From a virus: a stretch of DNA of 54,153 bases. Location of the stretch: positions 1 to 54,153 of the IMG/VR virus record IMGVR_UViG_3300009181_000094. One strand, 5' to 3'. Positions 21,690 to 53,473 of this stretch are shown here, one piece after another. The position numbers and the translations under genes were made by a program. The notes beneath the pieces are model-generated. The model was not told the DNA's origin and searched no databases. It saw only the letters and a program-made list of their open reading frames with translations. How positions within the stretch are numbered: position 1 is the first letter of the stretch; every line of letters begins with the position of its first letter.

Positions 21690-22314
21690 ATGGCAGTTTC
21701 ATCATTACAGAGAATGACAGTACCCTTGGCAAGTGACCAAAGCTCACCAACCCAAGGTCTGTTGATGCCCAAACTCAAATATCGCTTTAGAGTGATGTTT
21801 GAAAATCTTGGCGTGAGCACACCAAGAACAGAATTGACCAAACAAGTTGTGAGCTTTGCTCGTCCCAATTTGACATTTGAAGAAATTTCATTGCCAATTT
21901 ACAACTCAACATTAAAACTGGCAGGTCGTCATGCCTGGGCCGACACCACATGCAGTCTGCGTGATGATGCGTCTGGTCAAGTCAGCAGATTGGTTGGCGA
22001 ACAGTTGCAGAAGCAAATGGATTTCTTGGAAATGAGTTCAGCAGCGTCTGGTATTGATTACAAGTTCACAACCAAAGTTGAAATCCTACGGTGGCAACGG
22101 TGCCAACGAACCAGTGGTGTTGGAAACATGGGAACTGTATGGCTGCTACCTCAAAGGTGCCAACTATGGCGACTTGAACTATGGCACTAACGAAGCTGCC
22201 ACAATCGAACTCAGCATTGCTTACGACAACGCCAATCAGACACCTGAAGGCACTGGAGTTGGTACTGCAGTTGGCAGAACTTTAGGCGACGTGGTAACCG
22301 GCGCAGGCGTCTAA
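21690..22314 (+). CDS. 19: Tail tube protein gp19, frameshifted near 22085
   Basis: Inner tail tube subunit. Frame one starts MAVSSLQRMTVPLA with GGAG 10 bases upstream and reads a normal gp19 (LLMPKLKYRFRVMF, FARPNLTFEEISLPIYNS, TCSLRDDASG, DYKFTTKVEI). At about 22083-22088 the protein sense moves to another frame (GGNGANEPVVLETWELYGCYL, then NEAATIELSIAYDNA) and ends at 22314. Frame one itself runs into nonsense and stops at 22190. The break fits loss of two bases (or gain of one) in CCTACGG, where a LDGG-type turn is expected. This would be a lethal lesion in an essential gene, so a sequence error or an unresolved assembly position is the likeliest reading. Confidence 0.8.
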
Positions 22315-24822: not shown

Positions 24823-24825
24823 ATA
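24818..24825 (+). promoter_or_regulatory. Late promoter AATAAATA after gp16
   Basis: AATAAATA overlaps the gp16 stop codon and lies 17 bases before the ATG at 24843, which has CAGGAAC as a ribosome site. An in-frame ATG at 24825 overlaps the box and is unlikely to be used. Confidence 0.55.
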
Positions 24826-24842
24826 TGATACAGGAACCTGAT

Positions 24843-25451
24843 ATGAAACCATTTGCACATTACCTAGCCGAAAGCGAACGTACCTACAACTATCGTATCA
24901 AACTGCTGGGTAAACCGCCTGGTGATTTGGTCGCACAGTTGAAGAAAAAGTTGGATCAATTTGATCCTGTCAAGATGGGTGAACCCAAGACCACCCCTAT
25001 ACAGATCATTCCCACTGACTTTCCCAATCACAAAAACGACTCAGTAACAATGTTTGATGTGAGCTTCAAGTATCCAGCCATCGAACCACAGATCAAACAA
25101 CTGGCACAGTTATTGGGCTTTGATCCCAATCACATCATCATGCAGACCACACCATATGTGGATGGCTTGGTGGATGAGTATGAACGGATTGATGCCGAAA
25201 GCAAAGACTTGCTGAATGACACAGACTATCCTGCTCCTGATGCAGAACAACGGGCCTTGAGCAAAGATTATGCTACTGGTCCTTATGATCATGCTGTGTT
25301 GAAAAATGCTTACCGTTCAGACTTCACCGTGGCTGGTGGCAAGACACCTCCTGCCAAAACCACAAATGATATTCCAATGGGCAACAAGAGCCCAATGACC
25401 AAGATCAATCGCCCCGCAAAGCCAGCCACTGGCGCACAACCAAGAGGATAA
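24843..25451 (+). CDS. Conserved T4-like phage protein of unknown function, 202 aa
   Basis: Start chosen at 24843 (MKPFAHYLAESERTYNYRIK) because of the AGGAAC leader and because the family opens this way. Residues 10-110 form a ferredoxin-like alpha/beta region (YRIKLLGKPP, LKKKLDQFDPVKMG, TMFDVSFKYPAIEPQI, FDPNHIIMQTTPY). The rest is charged, flexible and proline-rich, ending TGAQPRG. I recall similar proteins beside gp16 and gp17 in cyanophage genomes without a known role. A head or scaffold-related function would fit the neighbourhood but is inference. Confidence 0.7.
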   Translation: MKPFAHYLAESERTYNYRIKLLGKPPGDLVAQLKKKLDQFDPVKMGEPKTTPIQIIPTDFPNHKNDSVTMFDVSFKYPAIEPQIKQLAQLLGFDPNHIIMQTTPYVDGLVDEYERIDAESKDLLNDTDYPAPDAEQRALSKDYATGPYDHAVLKNAYRSDFTVAGGKTPPAKTTNDIPMGNKSPMTKINRPAKPATGAQPRG

Positions 25452-25455
25452 TACA

Positions 25456-27729
25456 ATGAGTTTCTTTTATGATTTAAACAAAAAACTAGACGCCATCCGC
25501 GAAACACCAAGCAAGACACATGGTCAGTTAAATGAGCGCGACATGGGCAAGCACAATAATGCCACCACAGGGTTCAAAGCCTTGGCTGACAAAGCCGGCA
25601 AAGAATATGGCTCAAAGGCTGCTGGCGAGCGTGTGGCTGGTGCTGTCAAGGCCAAGATGGCCAAGGCTGGCAAGTTGGAAGAAGAAGGCATGAGCCGTGC
25701 TGCCAAGGGTTATGAAAAATACGGCAAAGAAGGCATGGAAGCATTGGCCAAGGCTGGTCGTGATGGCAAAGCCCTTGATCCTATTAGAAAAAAGTACGAC
25801 AAGTATGACAATAAAGAAGTAGATGAAGGCGTCATGGACACAGTAAAGAACGTTGGCAAGCGAGTTGCCAGCGGTGTCAACCGGTTAGTTGGACATGGCA
25901 GTGATGAAGACATGATCAAAGACCTGCAACGCAAGTCAGGTGCTCCTGTCACAGGCAAGAAGCCAGCCACTGCACCAAAACAAAAGCCAATGCATCCAGC
26001 AGATGAATATGATTACTTTACTGGACGTGATAAGGTGCGTGGTGGTGAGCAACAAGTCAAAGAAAAACTAAGTCCAGCAAAACAAAAAAGTTTTGCAGCA
26101 TTGGCACCTCCCACAGACAAAATCACTTTTGCTGACAAGATTGCTGGCGCCAAAAAAGAAGTTGACGAGATGCTGGGTGATGTGGCTGCCGAAGCCATGC
26201 GTAATGCATTGAGCCCCAAGCAAAAGAAAATTGACATGAACAAAAATGGCAAACTAGATGCCAATGACTTTGCTATGTTGCGCAAAGGTTCTAAATCTAA
26301 ATCCAGTGGTGAAATGGACGAAGAACGTTCAAAAGGCACTGCATTTGACTTGTCAAGCCCAAGAGAAGTCAAACCCAAAGTTGGTTCAGTTGAACGTGGT
26401 CACAAGCATGATATCAAGCACACTGCTACAGGCCGTATGGTCACACGCCGTACAGATGATCAAGGCAACTCAGTTGGTGCAGACGATGACTCAGATACAC
26501 AAGCAGGACCACGTGGACGTGGACGTCCCAAGGGCACAAAAGGCGCTATTGGTGCCAAAGGACCCAGCGGCACAAGCAAGTTGATGACTCGTGAAGGTGA
26601 CAATGAAAGCAGCGAATTAAAAGCCGCCATGGCATTGCTGAAGAAGTCTGGTTACAAAGTGACCAAGGCTGAAGGTGAAGAACAAGAGCTTGATGAAAAA
26701 GCAGTGAGCAAAAAACAACAAAAATTCATGGGCATGGTTCATGCAACTCAAAAGGGCGAAAAAGCCCCCAGTAAAGAAGTTGCCAAAGTGGCCAAGACCA
26801 TGAAGAAATCGGACGCTGAAGACTTTGCCAGCACCAAGCACAAAGGCTTGCCAGAAAAAGCACCCAAGAAGAAAAAAGAAGAATCAGTTGAAGAATCTGG
26901 TACCACTAGTGGATCAGTTGCGACCAGCACTGCTACTGGTGGCAAGGGTGGAGTATTTGGCAAAGGCATTTATGACTCAATGAACTTTGAACTGGAACAA
27001 ATGATTGCTGAATCAATGAGCGTGAATATGAGTGACTCAACAGAAGGTGGTAAGAGTTTGACCATCACTGCCACAGACGAAGATGCACTCAAACTGGGCA
27101 TGATGTTGAAGAATGCCGGACTTGGTGGTGGAGATGCACACGGCGGCGACATGCACTCACATGCGGAAGAGCCATGTGAAACATGCGGCATGCCTGATTG
27201 TGGTTGCGGTGATGTTGAACAAGCAGTGGATGAAAATGCTCCTGATTGGCCCACAAACACTGAAACTTCTCCTGATGCATTGCAATATGCAGGCGGATTG
27301 AACAAGCCCAAAACAGACATAAACGGTGACGGACAAACTACCATTCCTAACCAAGCAGTTCACACACAAGACGAAAACATGCTACACAGACTCAGAGAAA
27401 TGGCCGGTATCAAACAATCTGAACTTGAGCCATGGAAAGAAACCATGAAGGAACAAGCTGAAGAAGAACTTGATGAAAGCAAAGAATGTTCTACATGCCA
27501 CAAGGCTCCTTGCGAGTGCGATGAAGATGTAGAAGAAAGTTTTCTTGAAAGCATCAAACGCATGCGAGAAATTGCTGGAATCCAAGAAGCCAAAAAACCA
27601 GACTTCTTGGACATGGACAAAGATGGCGACAAAAAAGAGCCCATGAGCAAAGCTGTCAAAGACAAAGAAAAGAAAGTTGATGAAAGCATTTTTGCGCTCA
27701 CCAACCAATGGAAAGCATACCGGGGGTAA
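25456..27729 (+). CDS. Mosaic low-complexity protein with AT-hook, EF-hand-like loops and Cys knuckles
   Basis: 757 aa, very rich in Lys and Glu, no membrane segment. Visible modules in order: a Lys/Ala helical N-terminus (1-130); EF-hand/dockerin-like loop DMNKNGKLDAND at 260-271; AT-hook-like RGRGRPKG at 353-360; a KQQKFMGMVHATQKGE...DFASTKHKGLP block (about 418-465) resembling DUF3008; two knuckles of identical spacing C-X2-C-X4-C-X-C at 574-584 and 678-688; DINGDGQTT at 621 and DMDKDGDKKE at 719; and a twice-used (L/I)xRxREMAGI-like motif at 643-652 and 699-709. Located between terminase genes, so an internal head, scaffold or DNA-associated protein is plausible. Function unproven. Confidence 0.7.
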   Translation: MSFFYDLNKKLDAIRETPSKTHGQLNERDMGKHNNATTGFKALADKAGKEYGSKAAGERVAGAVKAKMAKAGKLEEEGMSRAAKGYEKYGKEGMEALAKAGRDGKALDPIRKKYDKYDNKEVDEGVMDTVKNVGKRVASGVNRLVGHGSDEDMIKDLQRKSGAPVTGKKPATAPKQKPMHPADEYDYFTGRDKVRGGEQQVKEKLSPAKQKSFAALAPPTDKITFADKIAGAKKEVDEMLGDVAAEAMRNALSPKQKKIDMNKNGKLDANDFAMLRKGSKSKSSGEMDEERSKGTAFDLSSPREVKPKVGSVERGHKHDIKHTATGRMVTRRTDDQGNSVGADDDSDTQAGPRGRGRPKGTKGAIGAKGPSGTSKLMTREGDNESSELKAAMALLKKSGYKVTKAEGEEQELDEKAVSKKQQKFMGMVHATQKGEKAPSKEVAKVAKTMKKSDAEDFASTKHKGLPEKAPKKKKEESVEESGTTSGSVATSTATGGKGGVFGKGIYDSMNFELEQMIAESMSVNMSDSTEGGKSLTITATDEDALKLGMMLKNAGLGGGDAHGGDMHSHAEEPCETCGMPDCGCGDVEQAVDENAPDWPTNTETSPDALQYAGGLNKPKTDINGDGQTTIPNQAVHTQDENMLHRLREMAGIKQSELEPWKETMKEQAEEELDESKECSTCHKAPCECDEDVEESFLESIKRMREIAGIQEAKKPDFLDMDKDGDKKEPMSKAVKDKEKKVDESIFALTNQWKAYRG

Positions 27730-28252: not shown

Positions 28253-28627
28253 GTGAGAGCCACTGAGTTCCTTGTTGAAAAACAACAAGGTCACATGCGT
28301 CATAGATATCACCAGGCCACCCGTGGACTAAACAAGTTCCGTGACCCAGGTGGGTATGATCGTGCCTATGAACTCAATCGTGTGATGATGGCAGTGGCCT
28401 GTGCTGATGGCAGTAATAAACCTATAGACATGGACTCGGCCAGTTGGGTAGGCAAGTACAACACAGCAAATCCTTACACTGATGAAGAATCAAAAATGAT
28501 GAAGCAGGCATTCAAAGCTGTGGGCAGCGAAACACATGACATGAATCATGGCGATAATCGCAGCCAAGAGCCTGGTGATACAAACAAAATCAGTCCGGTA
28601 GCAGCATTCAAAGGATATCCCCGATGA
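28253..28627 (+). CDS. Small protein of a paralogous pair (MRA-EFL / GYPR), copy 1
   Basis: 124 aa. The GTG at 28253 is chosen because it gives MRATEFLVEK, matching MRAKEFLKEQ in the next gene. Both proteins end with an F-x-GYPR tail (AFKGYPR here, PFAGYPR there) and share a middle segment of the form YxxxRxxxAxA..D....PI.MD-.W. The two genes overlap by 4 bases. Probably an old tandem duplication. No catalytic motif; soluble. Expressed with late genes. Role unknown. Confidence 0.6.
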   Translation: MRATEFLVEKQQGHMRHRYHQATRGLNKFRDPGGYDRAYELNRVMMAVACADGSNKPIDMDSASWVGKYNTANPYTDEESKMMKQAFKAVGSETHDMNHGDNRSQEPGDTNKISPVAAFKGYPR

Positions 28628-29010
28628 GAGCTAAAGAGTTCCTTAAGGAACAAACAACATTGCCTCCTGAACAAGCAGATCCCATGAATCACGTGTTTAC
28701 ATTGCCTGGAGTGCAATCTAGCGACCCATATCAGATTTATCGACTGGGTGTGGCCATGGCTCGTGCCAGAAGTGATGCTGGCACGAATGATCCAATTCCA
28801 TTCATGCCAGAATGGTCTCCCAGGGCTGCATTTGGAGAAGATGCGGTGGTTGCTGGTTTTAATGCCACTGTTGAACCCATAATTGACCAAGCATTGAAAA
28901 TGGCTGGCTTGCCTGCTACAAAAGTGCAAATTAGCACTCCAAACAGTTTAGAACCTGCATCTGTGTTAAAACAAAGTCCTGTCAAGCCATTTGCTGGCTA
29001 CCCCCGTTAA
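28624..29010 (+). CDS. Small protein of a paralogous pair (MRA-EFL / GYPR), copy 2
   Basis: 128 aa, overlapping copy 1 by ATGA. Begins MRAKEFLKEQTTLPP and ends PVKPFAGYPR. The central region (IYRLGVAMARARSDAG, DPIPFMPEWSPRAAFGEDAVVAGF) aligns loosely with YELNRVMMAVACADG and PIDMDSASWVGKYN in copy 1. The MRA-EFLxE start recurs in other short proteins of aquatic T4-like phages, where I recall no assigned role. A late box follows 6 bases after its stop. Confidence 0.6.
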   Translation: MRAKEFLKEQTTLPPEQADPMNHVFTLPGVQSSDPYQIYRLGVAMARARSDAGTNDPIPFMPEWSPRAAFGEDAVVAGFNATVEPIIDQALKMAGLPATKVQISTPNSLEPASVLKQSPVKPFAGYPR

Positions 29011-29016
29011 CCAATC

Positions 29017-29024
29017 AATAAATA
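29017..29024 (+). promoter_or_regulatory. Late promoter AATAAATA directly before the nuclease gene
   Basis: AATAAATA ends at 29024, and five bases (TCCAT) separate it from the ATG at 29030. No ribosome site fits between, so a leaderless transcript or translation from an upstream transcript is implied. Confidence 0.6.
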
Positions 29025-29029
29025 TCCAT

Positions 29030-29836
29030 ATGAAAAAACTTTTATTTGTGCTGTTGCTCACAGCCTTTAACTCAGCACAGGCCTGGGACCAAACAGCCCC
29101 ACTAGCAGTTGACCACTGCAAAGCACACAATCCTTACGGTTGGGCACAGACTTCAAAACAAGTCACAGCCATTTGCCGTAGAGCATATTTTGTGGCATAC
29201 GATGCAGCCGCAAAGATTCCCAACTATGTAACATACACACTGACCCCACCCAATGCCTTGGGATGCTGGCCAAGAACCAATGCGTTTGTAGCAGATGCCT
29301 CAGTGCCCAATGGGCCACGTCCAGATGACTATGCTGGCACAGGCTACGACAAAGGTCATGCTGCTCCTGATGGCGACTTATCATGGGATCAACAAGTAGA
29401 GTACGAGTCATTCCTAATGACCAATATGTATCCGCAACTGGGTGGATTGAATCGTGGCATTTGGAAACTGTTGGAAACGTCAGTGCGTGGCTGGACTGTG
29501 CAACAAAATCAGGTGTATACAATCTATGTGGGTGCTGTGTATGACACTGCCACTGACAAAAAGATTGGCAACGGTGTTGTGGTGCCCACAGGCTTCTACA
29601 AGATTGTGATCAATCAAGCCACAGGTGCCATGGCTGGCTGGTATTTCCGGCATGAAGGCGGACAAGGCAATGACTTGACCCGGGCCCGTGCTGCTATCTC
29701 AGCAATCCAAAACAAAGCAGGAGTGAAGTTTGCTTATCCTGCCAATGCGCATGAACTGCCTATTGGACAAGAATGGCCCGTGGACTTTGGCGCACTAACA
29801 AATGCCAAACGTGCCAAGTGCAAATCTGCCGAATAA
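29030..29836 (+). CDS. Secreted DNA/RNA non-specific endonuclease (NUC1/EndA family)
   Basis: 268 aa from ATG 29030. The first 18 residues (MKKLLFVLLLTAFNSAQA) are a clear Sec signal peptide with an AQA-W cleavage site, so the enzyme is probably exported to the periplasm or outside. The family motif DRGH appears as YDKGHAAPDGDL (about residues 106-117), followed at normal distance by the metal-binding Asn region TNMYPQ...LNRGIWKLLE. Length and order are normal for the beta-beta-alpha-metal nucleases. Two cysteine pairs fit an exported protein. It lies among late genes, between small virion proteins and a radical SAM gene. Possible roles: degrading released host DNA, blocking incoming phage DNA, or action at the cell surface. 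Confidence 0.9.
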   Translation: MKKLLFVLLLTAFNSAQAWDQTAPLAVDHCKAHNPYGWAQTSKQVTAICRRAYFVAYDAAAKIPNYVTYTLTPPNALGCWPRTNAFVADASVPNGPRPDDYAGTGYDKGHAAPDGDLSWDQQVEYESFLMTNMYPQLGGLNRGIWKLLETSVRGWTVQQNQVYTIYVGAVYDTATDKKIGNGVVVPTGFYKIVINQATGAMAGWYFRHEGGQGNDLTRARAAISAIQNKAGVKFAYPANAHELPIGQEWPVDFGALTNAKRAKCKSAE

Positions 29837-29868: not shown

Positions 29869-31044
29869 ATGGCCAAAACTATTCCTAAAGATTTTTACTG
29901 TGCTGCACCCTGGCGCGGTTTGCATATAAACCCCCAGGGTGCTGTCAAAACATGCTGTGCCGGCGATCCCAACATGTTGGGCAATCTTAACTCGCAAGGC
30001 ATTGAACAAATACTCAACAGCGACCTGATGGGCAAAATACGTGCCAGTTTGGCACAAGGCAAACCGCACAAATACTGCAATAACTGTGTCAAAGCCGAAC
30101 GATTTGGTGCTGATTCAGAGCGGCAGTGGCACAACAAAGTCAACCCCAACTTTGACTTTGCCAACGCAGGTGATCAGTATCATTATCCAGTGATTGTGGA
30201 TGTGCGCTGGAATACCACTTGCAATTTGAGTTGCAACTACTGTGGAGAAATGTGCAGTTCAAAATGGGCGCAGATCAAGTCCATGCCAATCAAATCTGGC
30301 ACAAGACCCTATTACGAGCAAGTGTGTGATTTTATTGAGCAACATCATGATCACATATACGAAGTTGCACTAGTGGGCGGCGAACCACTGTTGCTGCCTG
30401 AAAATGAAAGACTGCTGGATGTTGTGCCCAAATCTGCTATCATCACATTGATCACAAATCTAAGTGTTGATTTACGCAACAACAAAGTATTCCGCAAATT
30501 GTCCGAAAGACAAAAGGTAGGGTGGTCAATGAGCTTTGACAACATTGGAGCTAAGTTTGAATATGTGAGGCACGGTGCTTCTTGGCCTGTGTTGCAAGAA
30601 AATTTACAGATCATCAAAGACAGCAAGCAAAGTCGACAAAACTGGGGCGGAGTACATGCAGTGTATAATATCTACAACGCCACTCATATCTGCGAATTTA
30701 GACAATTCCTTCAGGATGCAGGTGTTTCAATTATGTGGCAAAACTTGTTTAGACCTGACTACTTGGATCCATTTTTGTATGGTCCTGCTGTGGCCGAGAA
30801 GGCTGCGGAAGAGATTAGACGTTTTTATGCCATGGGCATTGCTACTCCTGCAGAGAAGAGATTTTTTGATCAAGCACTGAGTAAATACGAGTCTGTTGTG
30901 GCAGCACAACCCAGAATTGTTTACAAGTTCAAGCAACACATCAACGAAATTGAAACAATGTATCACCCAGACAAAGCAGGACAATTTAGACAGTTATGGC
31001 CTGAACTGGCCGAAAGCATATTAGATGATCCAACCTCCAGCTAA
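29869..31044 (+). CDS. Radical SAM protein with N-terminal twitch/SPASM-like cysteine domain
   Basis: 391 aa. The N-terminal auxiliary domain carries C11, C29-C30, C70 and C73 (YCAAPW...KTCCAGD...YCNNC). The radical SAM site CX3CX2C is C118, C122 and C125 (TTCNLSCNYC), followed by VALVGGEPLL near residue 167. The architecture is the same as in the protein at 52322. Such enzymes often modify peptides or sugars; the substrate here is unknown. It overlaps the terminase large subunit gene by 20 bases, so it is co-translated with packaging genes, which makes a virion or packaging-linked target conceivable but unproven. Confidence 0.85.
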   Translation: MAKTIPKDFYCAAPWRGLHINPQGAVKTCCAGDPNMLGNLNSQGIEQILNSDLMGKIRASLAQGKPHKYCNNCVKAERFGADSERQWHNKVNPNFDFANAGDQYHYPVIVDVRWNTTCNLSCNYCGEMCSSKWAQIKSMPIKSGTRPYYEQVCDFIEQHHDHIYEVALVGGEPLLLPENERLLDVVPKSAIITLITNLSVDLRNNKVFRKLSERQKVGWSMSFDNIGAKFEYVRHGASWPVLQENLQIIKDSKQSRQNWGGVHAVYNIYNATHICEFRQFLQDAGVSIMWQNLFRPDYLDPFLYGPAVAEKAAEEIRRFYAMGIATPAEKRFFDQALSKYESVVAAQPRIVYKFKQHINEIETMYHPDKAGQFRQLWPELAESILDDPTSS

Positions 31045-32611
31045 AAATTTAGAAACGGTGCTGGTCAAAGCGCCGCACCGCAAAGAAGTCTACACAGAAG
31101 ACGAGCTGATTGAGTTTGCCCGGTGTGCAGATCCTGTCACAGGTCCACTATACTTCATGGATAATTTCTTTTTTATTCAGCATCCCACACGCGGTAAGAT
31201 GTTGTATCATCCGTTTGAGTATCAGACCAGACTGATTGAAACTTATCACAACTACAGATACAGTATCAGTCTGATGCCTCGACAAACCGGCAAGTCAACG
31301 TCGGCTGCCGGTTACTTGTTGTGGTATGCAATGTTTGTGCCAGACAGCACAATCTTAGTGGCCGCACACAAATACACAGGTGCGCAGGAGATCATGCAAC
31401 GTATTCGTTATGCATATGAACTGTGTCCCAATCATATTAGAGCAGGTGCTACCAGTTACAACAAGAACAGTCTAGAGTTTGAAAACGGATCGCGTATTGT
31501 TGCACAGACCACAACTGAAACAACTGGACGGGGTATGTCCATATCGCTGTTATACGCTGATGAGTTTGCATTTGTGCGACCCACTATTGCCAGAGAGTTC
31601 TGGACTTCTATCAGCCCCACCTTGGCCACTGGTGGTAAGGCAATTATTACAAGCACTCCCAACTCAGACGAAGACCAGTTTGCACTGCTGTGGAAAGGTG
31701 CCAACAAGACTGAGGACGAGCATGGCAACACCACTGAGTTAGGCATCAACGGATTCCGTGCATTTAGAAGCAACTGGCGTGAGCACCCTGACAGAGATGA
31801 AAAATGGGGATTGGAACAGTTGGCACAACTGGGTGAAGATCGATTCCGACGTGAAATGGAATGCGAATTTGTTATCAATGATGAAACCTTGATTGCCCCT
31901 ACCAAACTACTGGACTTAGAGGGCGTAGAACCACAACGCAGAACAGGTCAAGTGCGTTGGTATAAAAAGCCTGTCAAAGACAAAATGTATATTGTGGCAT
32001 TAGACCCTAGCCTGGGCACAGGCGGCGATCCTGCTGCCATACAAGTGTTTGAAGCAGATACCACAGAACAAGTGGCCGAATGGCGTCACAACAGAACTGA
32101 CATTCCCACACAGGTCAAACTGTTGGCTGACATTGTGGCTGAGTTATACGAAGTCATCAAAGACGACAAAAAGATTTACTATTCAGTAGAAAACAACACC
32201 ATTGGTGAAGCTGCCTTGATATCCATAAACGAGTATGGCGAAGAGAATATTCGGGGCTACTTTCTCAGCGACAATTCAGTGACAGGCACCACTGGACGTA
32301 GATTCCGCAAGGGATTCAACACCACCAACAAAGCCAAGCTCACTGCCTGCAACAAGTTCAAAATTCTTGTGGAATCAGGTCGCATGAAGCTACACAGCAG
32401 ACCCTTGATTTCAGAACTCAAAACGTTTGTTGCTCATGGGGGCAGTTATGCTGCCAAGCCCGGCGAAACTGATGACCTTGTGATGAGCTCGCTGTTGGCA
32501 GTGCGCATGCTGATGATGTTGCAAACATACCATGCAGAACTAGACACACAAATGAAAGATCACGGCGATAACATCATTGAGCCCATGCCGTTCATATCAA
32601 TGCTGCGCTAA
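31025..32611 (+). CDS. 17: Terminase large subunit gp17
   Basis: ATP-driven DNA packaging motor and headful nuclease. 528 aa. The N-terminal ATPase has the Walker A variant SLMPRQTGKST (about residues 81-91), the Q-rich adenine region before it, Walker B LLYADEFAFV (about 175-184) and the coupling motif IITSTPN. The C-terminal RNase H-like nuclease shows YIVALDPSLGTGGD (first acidic residue), SVENNTIGEAAL and a late DDLVMSSLLA Asp pair. Starts inside the end of the radical SAM gene. Normal length for T4-like phages of this group. Confidence 0.95.
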   Translation: MIQPPAKNLETVLVKAPHRKEVYTEDELIEFARCADPVTGPLYFMDNFFFIQHPTRGKMLYHPFEYQTRLIETYHNYRYSISLMPRQTGKSTSAAGYLLWYAMFVPDSTILVAAHKYTGAQEIMQRIRYAYELCPNHIRAGATSYNKNSLEFENGSRIVAQTTTETTGRGMSISLLYADEFAFVRPTIAREFWTSISPTLATGGKAIITSTPNSDEDQFALLWKGANKTEDEHGNTTELGINGFRAFRSNWREHPDRDEKWGLEQLAQLGEDRFRREMECEFVINDETLIAPTKLLDLEGVEPQRRTGQVRWYKKPVKDKMYIVALDPSLGTGGDPAAIQVFEADTTEQVAEWRHNRTDIPTQVKLLADIVAELYEVIKDDKKIYYSVENNTIGEAALISINEYGEENIRGYFLSDNSVTGTTGRRFRKGFNTTNKAKLTACNKFKILVESGRMKLHSRPLISELKTFVAHGGSYAAKPGETDDLVMSSLLAVRMLMMLQTYHAELDTQMKDHGDNIIEPMPFISMLR

Positions 32612-32621
32612 ATACACAACT

Positions 32622-35117
32622 ATGACAATGGAAGCATTACCTCAAGATCTAGCAGACTTTCTGGTTACAAAGAATTTTGACCCAGAATACTTTGATGACC
32701 AAGGCCAGCCCTCAGAAGCTGGTGACGCTAAAACTATCAAATTTGACTATGTGGCAGATTCCGGCAAGAATTACGGCACAGCAGTGTGTGTGATTGCTGA
32801 TGATGAACTCAGTTTGTTCTACGGGGACAATTTGGGCCGCGGAATGGAGCCAGAGGACAAAGAAGAGTGGTTCAGTTTCTTAGAAGAACTCAGCAACCAA
32901 GCAGCCAGACATTCAGCAACTTGGAGTCCCCGAGATATCAACCAACTCAAACACACCTTGGCTGGCATTGCTGCCATCAAAGAAGGTTTGTTTGAAGGCT
33001 ACTACGGTAATCGCCGTGTGAGTTACATGGGCGAACAAACTCAAGCGCGACTGGTGATCAATCACAATCGTGTGTTGGGCGAAGAAGACAAACGTTATCG
33101 CTATGTGGAAAGTTTGTTTATTGAAACAGCAGATCAAGAACGTTTTAGACTGCCATTCAAAAGCCTGGCAGGTGGTCGAGCCATGCTGGAACATGTGCGT
33201 TCGGGCGGACGCCCGTATGATGTTCGTGGCAATCACATTACCGAAGTTGTGAGTGAGATGGCAGTGCTGAGTCGTTTCAATCGTGCGCAACACAATCGTG
33301 TGTACGAGGGTGTCACACAAGAACTAGTAGAAAGCGCACAGCAATACTATCACAACCTACAAGAAACCATCAAGCATCTTGGCAGCTCACGTGGCTATCA
33401 AGCATACTTTGAAAGCTGGGCTCCTGACCAAACAGGTGAAGCAGAAAGCCTGGTAGAAAATCTACGCAACTTGTTTGTGGAACAAACACTGGATGCTAGA
33501 ATTGAAGCTGCCTTGCCCACATTGGCCAAGATACAACAACAAGGAAACAACATGAAAGAAGCGCAAATATTTGAAAACTGGATCAACAACCTCAGCGAAG
33601 GAACTTGGTCACTACCAGAAACTCCTGAGCAAATGGAAAAACTCAACCAGTTGATGAGTGCAGAACTCATTGTTGGTCCAGATGCTACCAACGCCACAGA
33701 ACTGTTGTATGACATTGTGGGTGATGACGAACTGTTTGACATCTTAAACGACTTGGCTGATCGTTCAGAAGGTCGTGCCAACATTTGGGACGACTCAGAT
33801 GTGCAACGCAGACTGGCTGAACTGGGTGTGCAAACTCCTCAGAGCACACAAGCAGAACCTGCTGATGTGCCACAAGACACAGCACCGGCTGTGAAAGAAC
33901 AAGGCATGGCGGAAGGCTCGTTGAATGAATTTAAAGTAGATAATTTCGATCGTGATGACGATGATGACGATGAGGATGAATTCCCGCAGATGTTTGAAGC
34001 ACCATTTACTGCTGTTATTAACGGTAAAAAACAAACTGGCACAGTGATAATTTATCCTGGAGAAGTTACCTCGGCAGAATGGCATCTCAAAGATGCAATC
34101 TATATCAAAACTGGTATGGATAATGTACACGACACAAGTGACTTTATTACACATGCGGCAGAATACATTCAAGAAATCATCAAATTGGATGGCCGAGGGC
34201 ATAATTATGTAAAGCATCTGAAAAAGCGTCGAGGTGTGGGGGAAAACTCTGGTGACTCACAGATCGCACCTGGCATGAAAACTCAATACGGAATTGTGAT
34301 GTCTGTAGAGGGAAACACTGTCACAGTTAAAGCATCAAACGGTGAATTGACCACGGTGAATATTCACGATATAGAGCAAGGTGTGGCGGAAGGCGACAAC
34401 ATGTCTACATTTGCGGAAGATCGTGAATTGGCTGAGATGCTGAAATATGCTGGCGTGCCCATCAAAGAAAACGTGTTGACAGATTCCACTGGCAGCACAC
34501 TAGACCATATCATGGACACATACAAGCGTGATGTCAAAGACTTCACCCAAACTGGAGAAATGAGTCGTCATTTGGAGCAAGTATTGTATGATTACTACTA
34601 TGACGATATGCCATATGGCGCAAAAACTGGCGAAGACATAGATACATCTGAATGGATCGGCGATCGTTTTGCTCAAGACATTGGTCTTGACGAAGGTTGG
34701 AAAGGTGCCTTGGCCGGCGGACTTGCTGGCTCAGCATTGGGCAGCGTGGTTCCTGCACTGGGCACAATAGCCGGTGGTATTGCTGGTGCTTATGCAGGAC
34801 ACAAAATTGGCGATCAAGGGATCAGTGACCCAGACAAACAATGGAAGTCACCAAACAAAGAACCACAACAACAAAAACCTGTGAGTGAGTGCAACTACAC
34901 TATGGAAGGTGAATATTGCCCAGAACACGGTCTAGCCGAATGTGGCATGGCATCAGGTGGCGCAGTGGGCATGCCTTACAGCATGGGCGAAGGCACAGAT
35001 GATCCAATCAATTCAAACTCAGCCATGACTGGCAGCTACTACGAAGGCAAGGAATCTAACATCCAAGAAGGCGATGCACTCCTGGCAAGAATAAAGTCAT
35101 TAGCCTTGATTAGATGA
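32622..35117 (+). CDS. Large mosaic protein with EQG-AEG linkers and a glycine-zipper segment
   Basis: Start at ATG 32622 (MTMEALPQDLADFL), after the gp17 stop; GCTAAATA lies 7 bases upstream. About 831 aa. Residues 1-400 form a mostly globular region (FEGYYGNRRVSYMGEQTQ, LVINHNRVLGEEDKRYRYVE). Two short linkers, EQGMAEG (about 426) and EQGVAEG (about 584), separate further modules: an acidic stretch (DRDDDDDDEDEF) with a small domain, an SH3-like strand set (YGIVMSVEGNTVTV), then a helical block. Residues about 693-732 are a glycine-zipper hydrophobic segment (GALAGGLAGSALGS...GGIAGAYAGHKIG). Near the end is CNYTMEGEYCPEHGLAEC, possibly zinc-binding. Role unknown; the membrane-active segment invites a virion or ejection hypothesis. 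Confidence 0.7.
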   Translation: MTMEALPQDLADFLVTKNFDPEYFDDQGQPSEAGDAKTIKFDYVADSGKNYGTAVCVIADDELSLFYGDNLGRGMEPEDKEEWFSFLEELSNQAARHSATWSPRDINQLKHTLAGIAAIKEGLFEGYYGNRRVSYMGEQTQARLVINHNRVLGEEDKRYRYVESLFIETADQERFRLPFKSLAGGRAMLEHVRSGGRPYDVRGNHITEVVSEMAVLSRFNRAQHNRVYEGVTQELVESAQQYYHNLQETIKHLGSSRGYQAYFESWAPDQTGEAESLVENLRNLFVEQTLDARIEAALPTLAKIQQQGNNMKEAQIFENWINNLSEGTWSLPETPEQMEKLNQLMSAELIVGPDATNATELLYDIVGDDELFDILNDLADRSEGRANIWDDSDVQRRLAELGVQTPQSTQAEPADVPQDTAPAVKEQGMAEGSLNEFKVDNFDRDDDDDDEDEFPQMFEAPFTAVINGKKQTGTVIIYPGEVTSAEWHLKDAIYIKTGMDNVHDTSDFITHAAEYIQEIIKLDGRGHNYVKHLKKRRGVGENSGDSQIAPGMKTQYGIVMSVEGNTVTVKASNGELTTVNIHDIEQGVAEGDNMSTFAEDRELAEMLKYAGVPIKENVLTDSTGSTLDHIMDTYKRDVKDFTQTGEMSRHLEQVLYDYYYDDMPYGAKTGEDIDTSEWIGDRFAQDIGLDEGWKGALAGGLAGSALGSVVPALGTIAGGIAGAYAGHKIGDQGISDPDKQWKSPNKEPQQQKPVSECNYTMEGEYCPEHGLAECGMASGGAVGMPYSMGEGTDDPINSNSAMTGSYYEGKESNIQEGDALLARIKSLALIR

Positions 35118-51507: not shown

Positions 51508-52335
51508 ATGATCAAAGTTTATTTTCCTCGAGGTTGTTACGGCACTTACCTTGCACAGTGCATTTACAATTATACCAATTTAAGAACTGAACCGTTTGAA
51601 GGATTAGCATTAAACAATGACGGAAGCAGTCATCAATTTTGGTTGAGAAGTGAAGAGCTGGCATCAACAATAAGGCACGGCCACATTGATGCGCCATACT
51701 TGAATGTCAATGCAGATCATACAATAGTTGTCCTCCCTTGTCAAGAACACAGACTGGACTACTACGACAACCATTTTTTTAAAACAGAAAAAGAACAGTT
51801 GATCAATTATATTTTGATGCAAATGCCTGAACAAGAAGTCATCCACAAACTCAAAACGCATTGGGGTTACACAGGTAAATTTGACAGCACTGTTCCTAGA
51901 TGGATACTGAGAGAATGGTGTTCTTTTTGGATCAATGATGTTCTTGATCTAACATGTGATGCAACGTCATACACCAAAATAGATTCCACAATAAAAATAT
52001 CAACGCAAGACATAGTTGAAAATTGGAAAGAATCATTTATTCAATTGGTCTCAGCACTGCGGCTCAATCTCACAGTGGATGTTGATGTAATAGAAAAACA
52101 ACATGAGCAATTTCTAGCACTACAAAAATTTCATAATATTCAACTCAGGTGTGAACAATTTGCAACCAATCTAATCAACGGTGTCAACAGCAACATAGCA
52201 TTGCATAGCATTTTTGATGAAGCATACATTCAGCACTTCCTGCGACTGCACAATATTGAATTACAGTGTCACGGACTTGATGTGTTTCCAAACACCACGC
52301 AACAACTTAGAAACATGACTTATGCATCACAGTAA
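51508..52335 (+). CDS. Unknown protein coupled to a radical SAM gene, 275 aa
   Basis: MIKVYFPRGCYGTYLAQCIYNYTN opens with a strand, a Gly-containing turn and a helix, loosely like the nucleotide or PAPS-binding start of sulfotransferase-type folds. REWCSFWINDVLDL and KIDSTIKISTQDIV follow and the rest is helical. A TATACT lies 5 bases before the ATG. Its 3' end overlaps the radical SAM gene by 14 bases, so the two are made together and may act on the same substrate. I do not recognise the family with confidence. Confidence 0.65.
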   Translation: MIKVYFPRGCYGTYLAQCIYNYTNLRTEPFEGLALNNDGSSHQFWLRSEELASTIRHGHIDAPYLNVNADHTIVVLPCQEHRLDYYDNHFFKTEKEQLINYILMQMPEQEVIHKLKTHWGYTGKFDSTVPRWILREWCSFWINDVLDLTCDATSYTKIDSTIKISTQDIVENWKESFIQLVSALRLNLTVDVDVIEKQHEQFLALQKFHNIQLRCEQFATNLINGVNSNIALHSIFDEAYIQHFLRLHNIELQCHGLDVFPNTTQQLRNMTYASQ

Positions 52336-53473
52336 AATATTTTGTAATGCACCATTTACTAATGTGCGTATTGAAAGTCAGTCAGATCGAAATGTTATTT
52401 TCAAACCATGCTGTGTGTATCAAGAGCAGGCACCAATTCCTACTTTAAATGATTTTTTTGTTGGCAAGGAAATGAAAGATCTTCGGCACAACATGCTGGC
52501 GGGCGCAGTGCCAGATGTGGGGTGTGTCAACTGTTCTGTTCCTGAAAGCATGGGATTGACCAGCATAAGAAAACAACTGTTGAATCAGCCCTGGGCCAGT
52601 GCAGACAACAAGACCTATACGTTGGAAATATTCTTTGGTAACACTTGCAATTTAGGATGCGCCATGTGTTCGGCTGAAGTCAGCAGTTATGCAGCCGAGG
52701 AACGATACCAAGCAGGCATCATGCCCATCCGACCTTTGATTGCAGACAATGTTCAAATAGCATTGGACACCATTGACCAGCTGCCAGATTTGAAGAGTGT
52801 GACGTTCATTGGGGGCGAATTCTTTTTGGTCAAGCGCAACATTGAAATCCTTGACAAGATCATACAAAGAAATATACAATGTGTTATAGCTACCAACGCC
52901 ACCGTGCTCACCGAACCATTGCTACACAAACTGGAACAAATTCAAGACTTGGAAATAGGAATCAGTGTTGATGGTGTCAAAGATGTTTACAACTTTGTGC
53001 GATATCCTGGCAACTGGGACACACTAAATCGCAACATTGACACACTAAAGCAACGCATTCCTTGGGCTGACTATAGTGTTCGTGCGGTGGCACAACCTTT
53101 GAACATTCAAAATTTTCACGAACTGTTTGAATGGGCAAACAAAAAAATGCTACCGTTCCACTATCAAGTATTGGTAACTCCTGAACACTTGACTTGGAAA
53201 ATTTTAACACCAGAAGAGAAACACGGTCTGGTAGAACTATTGAAGACAAAACAATCTGCTGAATATAAAATTACCAGCAAACAAAAAAGCACCATTGAAG
53301 ATTTCATCAATGGCATTGTGCAAGACAACTATGATGCACAGTTGAGAACACAAGGAGTTGAATACTTGTCCAAGCTGTTTGCACATAGAAAAATTTCCAA
53401 CGATGCAATATTAAAACAGTTTGGAATATTAACAGACTTGGCCAATGAAATAATTACTGCAATGAAAGCATGA
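52322..53473 (+). CDS. Radical SAM protein with N-terminal twitch/SPASM-like cysteine domain, second copy
   Basis: 383 aa, same architecture as the protein at 29869. Auxiliary cysteines are C8, C30-C31, C68 and C71 (IFCNAPF...KPCCVYQ...GCVNC), and the radical SAM site is C109, C113 and C116 (NTCNLGCAMC). The SAM-binding GGE strand follows as FIGGEFFLV, lacking the usual Pro. ATNATVLTEPLL and ISVDGVKDVYNFVRY are further barrel strands. It starts inside the preceding 275-aa gene and ends 1 base before the uvsW GTG. Substrate unknown. Confidence 0.85.
   Translation: MHHSKIFCNAPFTNVRIESQSDRNVIFKPCCVYQEQAPIPTLNDFFVGKEMKDLRHNMLAGAVPDVGCVNCSVPESMGLTSIRKQLLNQPWASADNKTYTLEIFFGNTCNLGCAMCSAEVSSYAAEERYQAGIMPIRPLIADNVQIALDTIDQLPDLKSVTFIGGEFFLVKRNIEILDKIIQRNIQCVIATNATVLTEPLLHKLEQIQDLEIGISVDGVKDVYNFVRYPGNWDTLNRNIDTLKQRIPWADYSVRAVAQPLNIQNFHELFEWANKKMLPFHYQVLVTPEHLTWKILTPEEKHGLVELLKTKQSAEYKITSKQKSTIEDFINGIVQDNYDAQLRTQGVEYLSKLFAHRKISNDAILKQFGILTDLANEIITAMKA

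Follow-up and report, generated by a model that had tools for sequence, protein, structure and literature searches.

The window, a 54-kb fragment in the form of one virus record (54,153 nucleotides), encodes in this order a neck protein, a dNMP kinase, sheath, tube and head closure proteins, ORF 24301, ORF 24825 and ORF 25456, followed by six ORFs, the large terminase gp17 (31025-32611, E 2e-114), a ssDNA-binding protein and UvsX. The window itself is without the gp21 S77 protease, gp23 and gp22. Its gene order matches that of Pseudomonas phage PA5oct gene by gene, and its gp17 is 51% identical to that of a PA5oct-type phage, the PA5oct terminase group being the closest cultured one. A sequence-only reading had placed ORF 25456 between gp16 and gp17; gp17 does lie downstream, but six ORFs intervene, and "gp16" is a positional label for ORF 24301, a member of phrog_16202, which is of unknown function.

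In the loci of the ORF 25456 family, upstream neighbours begin MK[PN]FA[KHRQ]YLAE/SE (slashes mark candidate cleavage points), and one or two proteins beginning MRAxEF[ILV]xE lie downstream in 26 of 27 loci (Table 1). Among 64 copies of these MRA proteins, residues 1-3, 6 and 9 are invariant and residues 4, 8 and 10 vary. Such a pattern is what a capsid-targeting peptide with a gp21 site at its end would be expected to show. The start resembles a T4-type capsid-targeting sequence (CTS) and may be a marker of the internal proteins that these phages encode; the targeting propeptides of T4 IPs are 10-19 residues long (PMC9026906). MRA proteins often end in KAFKGY(PR), close to the WKAYKG of the ORF 25456 family. 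As a whole, the gene cassette around ORF 25456 appears to encode a group of internal head proteins. The MRA start and end are common to unrelated small proteins, also in two large relatives, G005 (L139-L153) and G009 (L130-L138).

Table 1. Features of ORF 25456 and its neighbours (window coordinates; residues of the ORF 25456 protein).
Feature	Residues	Position	Strand	Basis or remark
Upstream neighbour, CTS-like N-terminus MKPFAHYLAE/S		24825..25451	+	syntenic with MS-detected EST35_0202
ORF 25456 protein, modular and disordered	1-757	25456..27729	+	757 aa; exact frame
N-terminal helix MSFFYDLNKKLDAI...QLNE, candidate targeting propeptide ending L-x-E	1-27	25456..25536	+	L25 41/43, E27 41/43
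Helical segment	40-115	25573..25800	+	pLDDT about 90
Near-invariant block KITFADKIAGAKKEVDEMLGDVAAEAM	209-251	26080..26208	+	alignment of relatives
EF/dockerin-like loop DMNKNGKLDAND, complete	260-271	26233..26268	+	in 23/50; Dockerin_1 22.5 bits
AT-hook-like RGRGRPKG	353-360	26512..26535	+	motif search, shuffles, alignment
DUF3008-like three-helix module	416-468	26701..26859	+	phrog_30268 E 3.7e-22; pLDDT about 90
Helix-strand-strand-helix module IYDSMNFELEQMIAESMSVNMSDS...ALKLGMMLKNAGLG	508-556	26977..27123	+	opens with I-A-E/S gp21-type site
Candidate prohead-protease site IAE/S	517-520	27004..27015	+	[IL] 43/43, E 43/43, S/G 42/43
Cys knuckle 1 CETCGMPDCGC	574-584	27175..27207	+	four-Cys cluster in 42/50
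Conserved segment DENAPDWPTNTET...YAGGLNKPK	593-619	27232..27312	+	alignment of relatives
Scaffold-tail-like motif 1 LHRLREMAGI	642-652	27379..27411	+	helix 641-649; gp22 C-termini
Cys knuckle 2 CSTCHKAPCEC	678-688	27487..27519	+	rare in relatives
Scaffold-tail-like motif 2 SIKRMREIAGI, then gp21-type IQE/A	699-712	27550..27591	+	helix 693-706
Cassette KPDFLDMDKDGDKKEPMSKA	714-735	27595..27660	+	phrog_24078 E 5.6e-7
Conserved C-terminus DESIFALTNQWKAYRG	742-757	27679..27726	+	resembles KAFKGY(PR) ends of MRA proteins
Downstream MRAxEF[IL]xE protein, CTS-like N-terminus		28253..28627	+	sequence; GTG start
Second downstream MRAxEF[IL]xE protein		28624..29010	+	sequence

ORF 25456 is a real frame whose boundaries had been read exactly, and all the motifs listed for it were recovered at the spacing originally given, although they carry unequal weight. 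All eight cysteines of the protein sit in the two knuckles. Neither two knuckles nor two tail-type AGI motifs arose in any of 2000 composition shuffles, and for RGRP the shuffles gave P=0.005. The AlphaFold model (mean pLDDT 54.8) consists mostly of disorder and short helices, two of which stop exactly at AGI; in the helical segment near the N-terminus, aa 30-77 represent an optional insert and aa 78-118 (MSRAAKGYEKYG...) are conserved. A PDB sequence search with the protein returned no match and Foldseek of the model against the PDB nothing at E under 0.5, while against BFVD the sole match was the DUF3008 module of S-RIM32 (E 6e-4). Searches of cultured phages by tblastn gave no match with the aa 500-675 region, nor with the variant in L079, the latter result being indicative only, as the query sequence was approximate.

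At least 249 relatives of ORF 25456 were found in IMG/VR, on records of up to 364 kb, and they come from large T4-related, metagenome-derived phages. Both gp23 (PF07068) and the S77 prohead protease occur in 10 of 12 large relative records (G001-G007, G009, G010, G012), and gp22 of the window's relatives was matched only in jumbo phages of the RaK2/PA5oct/Atu_ph07 type. Conservation was counted over 37-43 aligned sequences, and cysteines and loops over 50 non-redundant sequences, fragments included. The conserved parts are the N-terminal helix with LNE27, block 209-251, the AT-hook, DUF3008, the helix-strand-strand-helix region 505-556 with IAE/S, the first Cys cluster, DENxPDWPTNTET...GGLNKPK, the AG[ILV] helix and the C-terminus ES[IL]...WKAYKG; the second knuckle, the 621 loop and most of 30-77 are not conserved. 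Whole cassettes are swapped between relatives, both between and after the AGI helices, the exchanged cassette in L032 and L075 being a long AQ-rich stretch. Of the modules first listed, the AT-hook core and the AGI motif are kept in homologues, the first knuckle is common, the second is rare, and no loop is universal. In L034 and L048 the cassette between the AGI repeats is rich in hydrophobic, likely membrane-spanning segments, and the protein of L077 is almost doubled (1412 aa, 11 Cys).

RGRGRPKG has the R-G-R-P core and basic context of an AT-hook, and G356, R357 and P358 are invariant in 37 aligned relatives; because this core is invariant, DNA binding by the protein is plausible. Both C-x2-C-x4-C-x-C knuckles of identical spacing are present as described. 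Knuckle 1, as CxxCx4CxC or CxCx4CxC, was found in 42 of the 50 non-redundant sequences and is reduced to 0-1 Cys in four full-length ones (L034, L035, L048, L054); knuckle 2 occurs in a few relatives (L004, L007, L041). Metal binding by the CxxCx4CxC cluster is possible; a Pfam profile search of the protein gave no zinc-finger match, neither CCHC nor any other curated zinc-finger profile. The motif search also recovered D-x-[ND]-x-[DN]-G loops at aa 260, 621 and 719, and the proposal that these are three calcium sites was not supported. Loop 260-271 alone fills EF/dockerin positions 1, 3, 5, 6, 9 and 12, is not universal, and falls short of an EF-hand/dockerin calcium-site assignment, its score lying just under the Pfam Dockerin_1 cut-off (22.5 vs 22.9). 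The other two loops are incomplete and lie in exchangeable cassettes: the 621 loop is nearly confined to the window protein, and the 719 loop is part of one interchangeable C-terminal cassette (15/50), for which 11 of the 50 sequences have an alternative with DLDGDG. As the loops are not conserved, a role of Ca2+ as a general property of the family was rejected.

The DUF3008 module was absent from the sequence-only reading. It is 69% identical to the virion protein SSCSM1_93, through which it is tied to DUF3008: the module itself scores 15.0 bits against the Pfam profile (PF11450), under the gathering score of 24, and SSCSM1_93 scores 30.7. The cyanophage DUF3008 proteins S-SCSM1_93 and S-PM2p143 share 64-69% identity with the module over 61-73 aa; in cyanophages these are stand-alone proteins of 69-91 aa, whereas in ORF 25456 the module is one part of a fusion. 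Cassette 714-735 matches a second virion protein, SSCSM1_92 (56% over 32 aa), with PDFLD[ML]DKDG[DN]KKEPMxKA common to both; outside the cassette, S-SCSM1_92 is an unrelated basic protein of 520 aa. In S-SCSM1, for which 45 virion proteins were identified by MS (PMC9602691), DUF3008 (SSCSM1_93) and the PDFLDxDKDG cassette (SSCSM1_92) are adjacent separate genes, both annotated as virion proteins. In S-PM2 (L117; S-PM2p142, p143) a Cys-rich protein with a DNDGD loop adjoins the DUF3008 gene; the kinds of modules are those of ORF 25456, but in separate neighbouring genes.

Further virion evidence comes from proteins at the same locus. EST35_0203 (Wroclawvirus) lies in PA5oct directly before gp17 and after EST35_0202, a position corresponding to that of ORF 25456, and is annotated as "structural protein, ESI-MS/MS". 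GAP32_207, CBB_213 and RaK2_050 (phrog_15988) are also virion structural proteins encoded before gp17; CBB_213 was detected in virions with five unique peptides and 18.9% coverage (PMC5259590), and other proteins at loci of the CBB_213 type are virion structural too. Like the ORF 25456 protein, those of the GAP32 type carry L/I-x-E near the N-terminus (INE/A, LKE/A), phrog_15988 and EST35_0203 proteins have LAGI/LSGI helices and C-termini of the ES[IV]...K[FY] type, and the counterparts in PA5oct and Vibrio 2.275.O have Cys clusters; unlike it, phrog_15988 and EST35_0203 proteins have no AT-hook and no DUF3008 and are strongly acidic. Homology of the family to EST35_0203 or GAP32_207 was not significant (hmmsearch E 0.01-0.1, hhalign probability under 5%), and we claim no more than the same locus and a shared motif; the MS evidence therefore transfers by synteny and motif only. 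DUF3008 is present in bacteria too, and the module, together with the AT-hook, could instead act on host or phage chromatin in an intracellular DNA-binding or host-takeover protein that does not enter the virion. We regard this as very improbable, given that counterparts and modules are found in virions.

The repeated R-(E)-(M/I)AGI motif was confirmed as REMAGI at 647-652 and REIAGI at 704-709, and across the family the repeats read RRMMEMAGVKKK, RMREIAGIQEAK and RLREMAGIKQSE. All 43 relatives have [LIM]xx[LIM]AG[ILVM] within the last 260 residues, against 0.02 per shuffled protein; four (L038, L069, L074, L079) are without the later AGI helices and retain the 541-553 helix alone. R-x-[MI]AGI resembles the C-terminus of the prohead scaffold gp22 in these phages, which reads ...NVIDLKRLAGL in the window's relatives, ...VEELRRLAGIK in PA5oct, INDLKRLAGIKK (...LKRLAGIKK) in Atu_ph07 and LDRLTKIAGIRK in Vibrio 2.275.O, with the variants ...KLSGMDKKR (LSGM) in GAP32, ...ILSGIIKK (LSGI) in RaK2 and ...RNAGIHKK (NAGI) in Munch. 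T4-type gp22 of this group, a coiled-coil scaffold unflagged in PA5oct virions, thus has a C-terminal [LI]KRLAG[LI] like the AGI motifs of ORF 25456, where the motif is internal and repeated. Since gp22 ends with it, AGI is more suggestive of docking than of cleavage.

In PA5oct (~76,000 aa) the strict tail motif, [LIM]x[KRSTE][LIM][AS]G[ILVM], occurs five times: in the last residues of gp22, twice in EST35_0203, and in 0206 and 0235, all of these proteins except gp22 being MS-detected in virions. In G005 (94,000 aa) it is found in gp22, the ORF 25456 family member, an NMNAT-like enzyme and the C-terminus of a 179-aa protein, the only other G005 protein to end in it, and in G009 in gp22, twice in the family member and in the ORF 24301 homologue. 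The motif is short, and about 1.3 matches per proteome are expected by chance against the 4-5 found, so single matches mean little; the weight of the case comes from gp22 together with the shared locus in three genomes. The comparison of MS with non-MS proteins of PA5oct involves few matches (9 vs 5 for a broad motif) and a motif defined in part once the family had been seen. The 179-aa protein (L149:12256-12795; G005:C1:212256-212795), of the virion structural family phrog_13138, opens with a gp21-type site, MFEHLLE/G, and closes with a gp22-like tail, RSLQSMAGIR.

The surrounding genes, for neck, sheath, tube, head closure and terminase here and in PA5oct, where the counterpart is directly upstream of gp17, would also suit a neck, connector or packaging-associated protein whose AT-hook may contact DNA where the portal or terminase sits. 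This is quite unlikely: AlphaFold predicts no folded domain of the connector type, the tail motif also belongs to gp22, whose place of action is the head core, and the neighbours have CTS-like N-termini.

T4 gp21 cleaves after L/I-X-E (PMC9026906). Two candidate sites of the ORF 25456 protein, LNE27 and IAE519/S, are near-invariant, and a third, IQE711/A, is variable. The P1' residue of LNE27 is R in 41 of 43 relatives, which is atypical for gp21, after whose L/I-x-E a small residue would be expected. I/L517-x-E519-[SG] is present in 42 of 43, with position 518 free (A, S, T, K, N); where relatives carry insertions, the pattern is retained or doubled (IKE/SMSRLDE/S, INE/S..LSE/S, VLTE/G, LITE/G). 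The suggestion that the protein is cleaved at the AGI repeats was correct only in part: for roughly half of the relatives the last AGI leads into I-x-E-[AG] (AGIQEA, AGIREA, AGIKEG, the gp21 consensus), but many have AGVKKK there, and because these forms lack a site the suggestion no longer serves as the main idea. Family proteins average 3.0 sites against 1.5 when shuffled; the three strict [LI]xE[AGSN] sites of the window protein are not above chance in shuffles (P=0.21), and the enrichment of L/I-x-E in PA5oct virion proteins (29 vs 22 per 10,000 aa) is weak and hence not used as evidence. In this phage group gp23 carries YLKE/NASSG or FLVE/NASAG, presumably at the place where gp23 is cleaved, going by the T4 alignment. 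From the site patterns we infer that the ORF 25456 protein is probably cut by gp21.

The gp22-like tails, the several L/I-x-E sites, the disorder, the charged composition and the bounded exchangeable cassettes would fit a consumable core or scaffold auxiliary (like gp67/gp68) that fills the prohead with gp22, is cut up by gp21 and mostly leaves. We consider this unlikely, as syntenic proteins are present in mature virions whereas PA5oct gp22 has no MS flag, and an invariant AT-hook core would be odd for pure filler; the presence of counterparts in finished virions also weakens the purely scaffolding role proposed initially.

The reading we favour, at a probability of roughly 0.55, is that a jumbo T4-related phage of the RaK2/PA5oct type here encodes an internal head (prohead core) protein, made of short modules strung along a disordered chain; its location inside the head we infer. 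Of the initial idea, a virion protein of the head/packaging region gains indirect support from EST35_0203 and CBB_213 by synteny and from the lone DUF3008 virion protein of S-SCSM1. The N-terminal helix (aa 1-27, ending LNE) would help to bring the protein into the assembling prohead, where amphipathic helices ending [LIM]x[KRE][LIM]AG[ILV] would dock using the contact made by the gp22 C-terminus (with gp23 or the core). Cleavage by gp21 at LNE27, IAE519/S and, where present, IQE711/A would then free the central basic part, which, with its AT-hook and DUF3008, would stay with the packaged DNA.

The scaffold-like tail motif is the new point. The capsid-targeted, gp21-processed internal proteins IPI-III and Alt of T4 likewise have a short N-terminal segment ending L/I-x-E, and Alt is cut at its C-terminus too (PMC9026906); the ORF 25456 protein differs from them as a 757-aa mosaic chain with scaffold-tail motifs and no sequence homology, but would like them be expected to go into the core and undergo trimming. 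Inner-body and ejection proteins of phiKZ and SPN3US, phages of a different lineage, are described in PMC9026906 and PMC10052503 as a large protease-matured set packed with DNA.

More tentatively, the AGI helices could be a general head-loading tag of jumbo T4-like phages, with the gp22 C-terminal peptide reused by cargo, internally and in copies, and modules (AT-hook, Cys4, EF loop, DUF3008, even transmembrane segments) swapped onto a disordered chain that bears the tag and is trimmed by gp21 later, within the capsid. How proteins other than T4 IPs are sorted into the prohead core is, according to PMC9958956, unresolved, and a tag shared with the tip of the scaffold suggests how such internal proteins get loaded. 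A motif common to the scaffold C-terminus and to abundant uncharacterised virion proteins offers a direct and cheap test of core targeting; if the idea is true, internal cargo of giant phages would be predictable from sequence, and cargo could perhaps be addressed to large capsids.

Other frames of the window, all on the + strand, are also of note. The 846-aa protein after gp17 (32577-35117) contains a glycine zipper as well as six L/I-x-E-[AGS] sites and is related to phrog_13484; the PA5oct protein in that family, EST35_0206, was detected by MS and has DLKRLSGV. Frame 28991-29836, inside the head gene cluster, has a likely signal peptide and reads like a secreted nonspecific endonuclease. 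Frame 13905-14867 matches radical SAM families, and the Cys-rich frames 29869-31044 and 52322-53473 are similar to it by eye; two of the three sit among structural genes. The tail-tube-like frame at 21690-22314 seems split into overlapping parts (21690-22190 and 22054-22314), by a frameshift, a sequencing error or a programmed shift.
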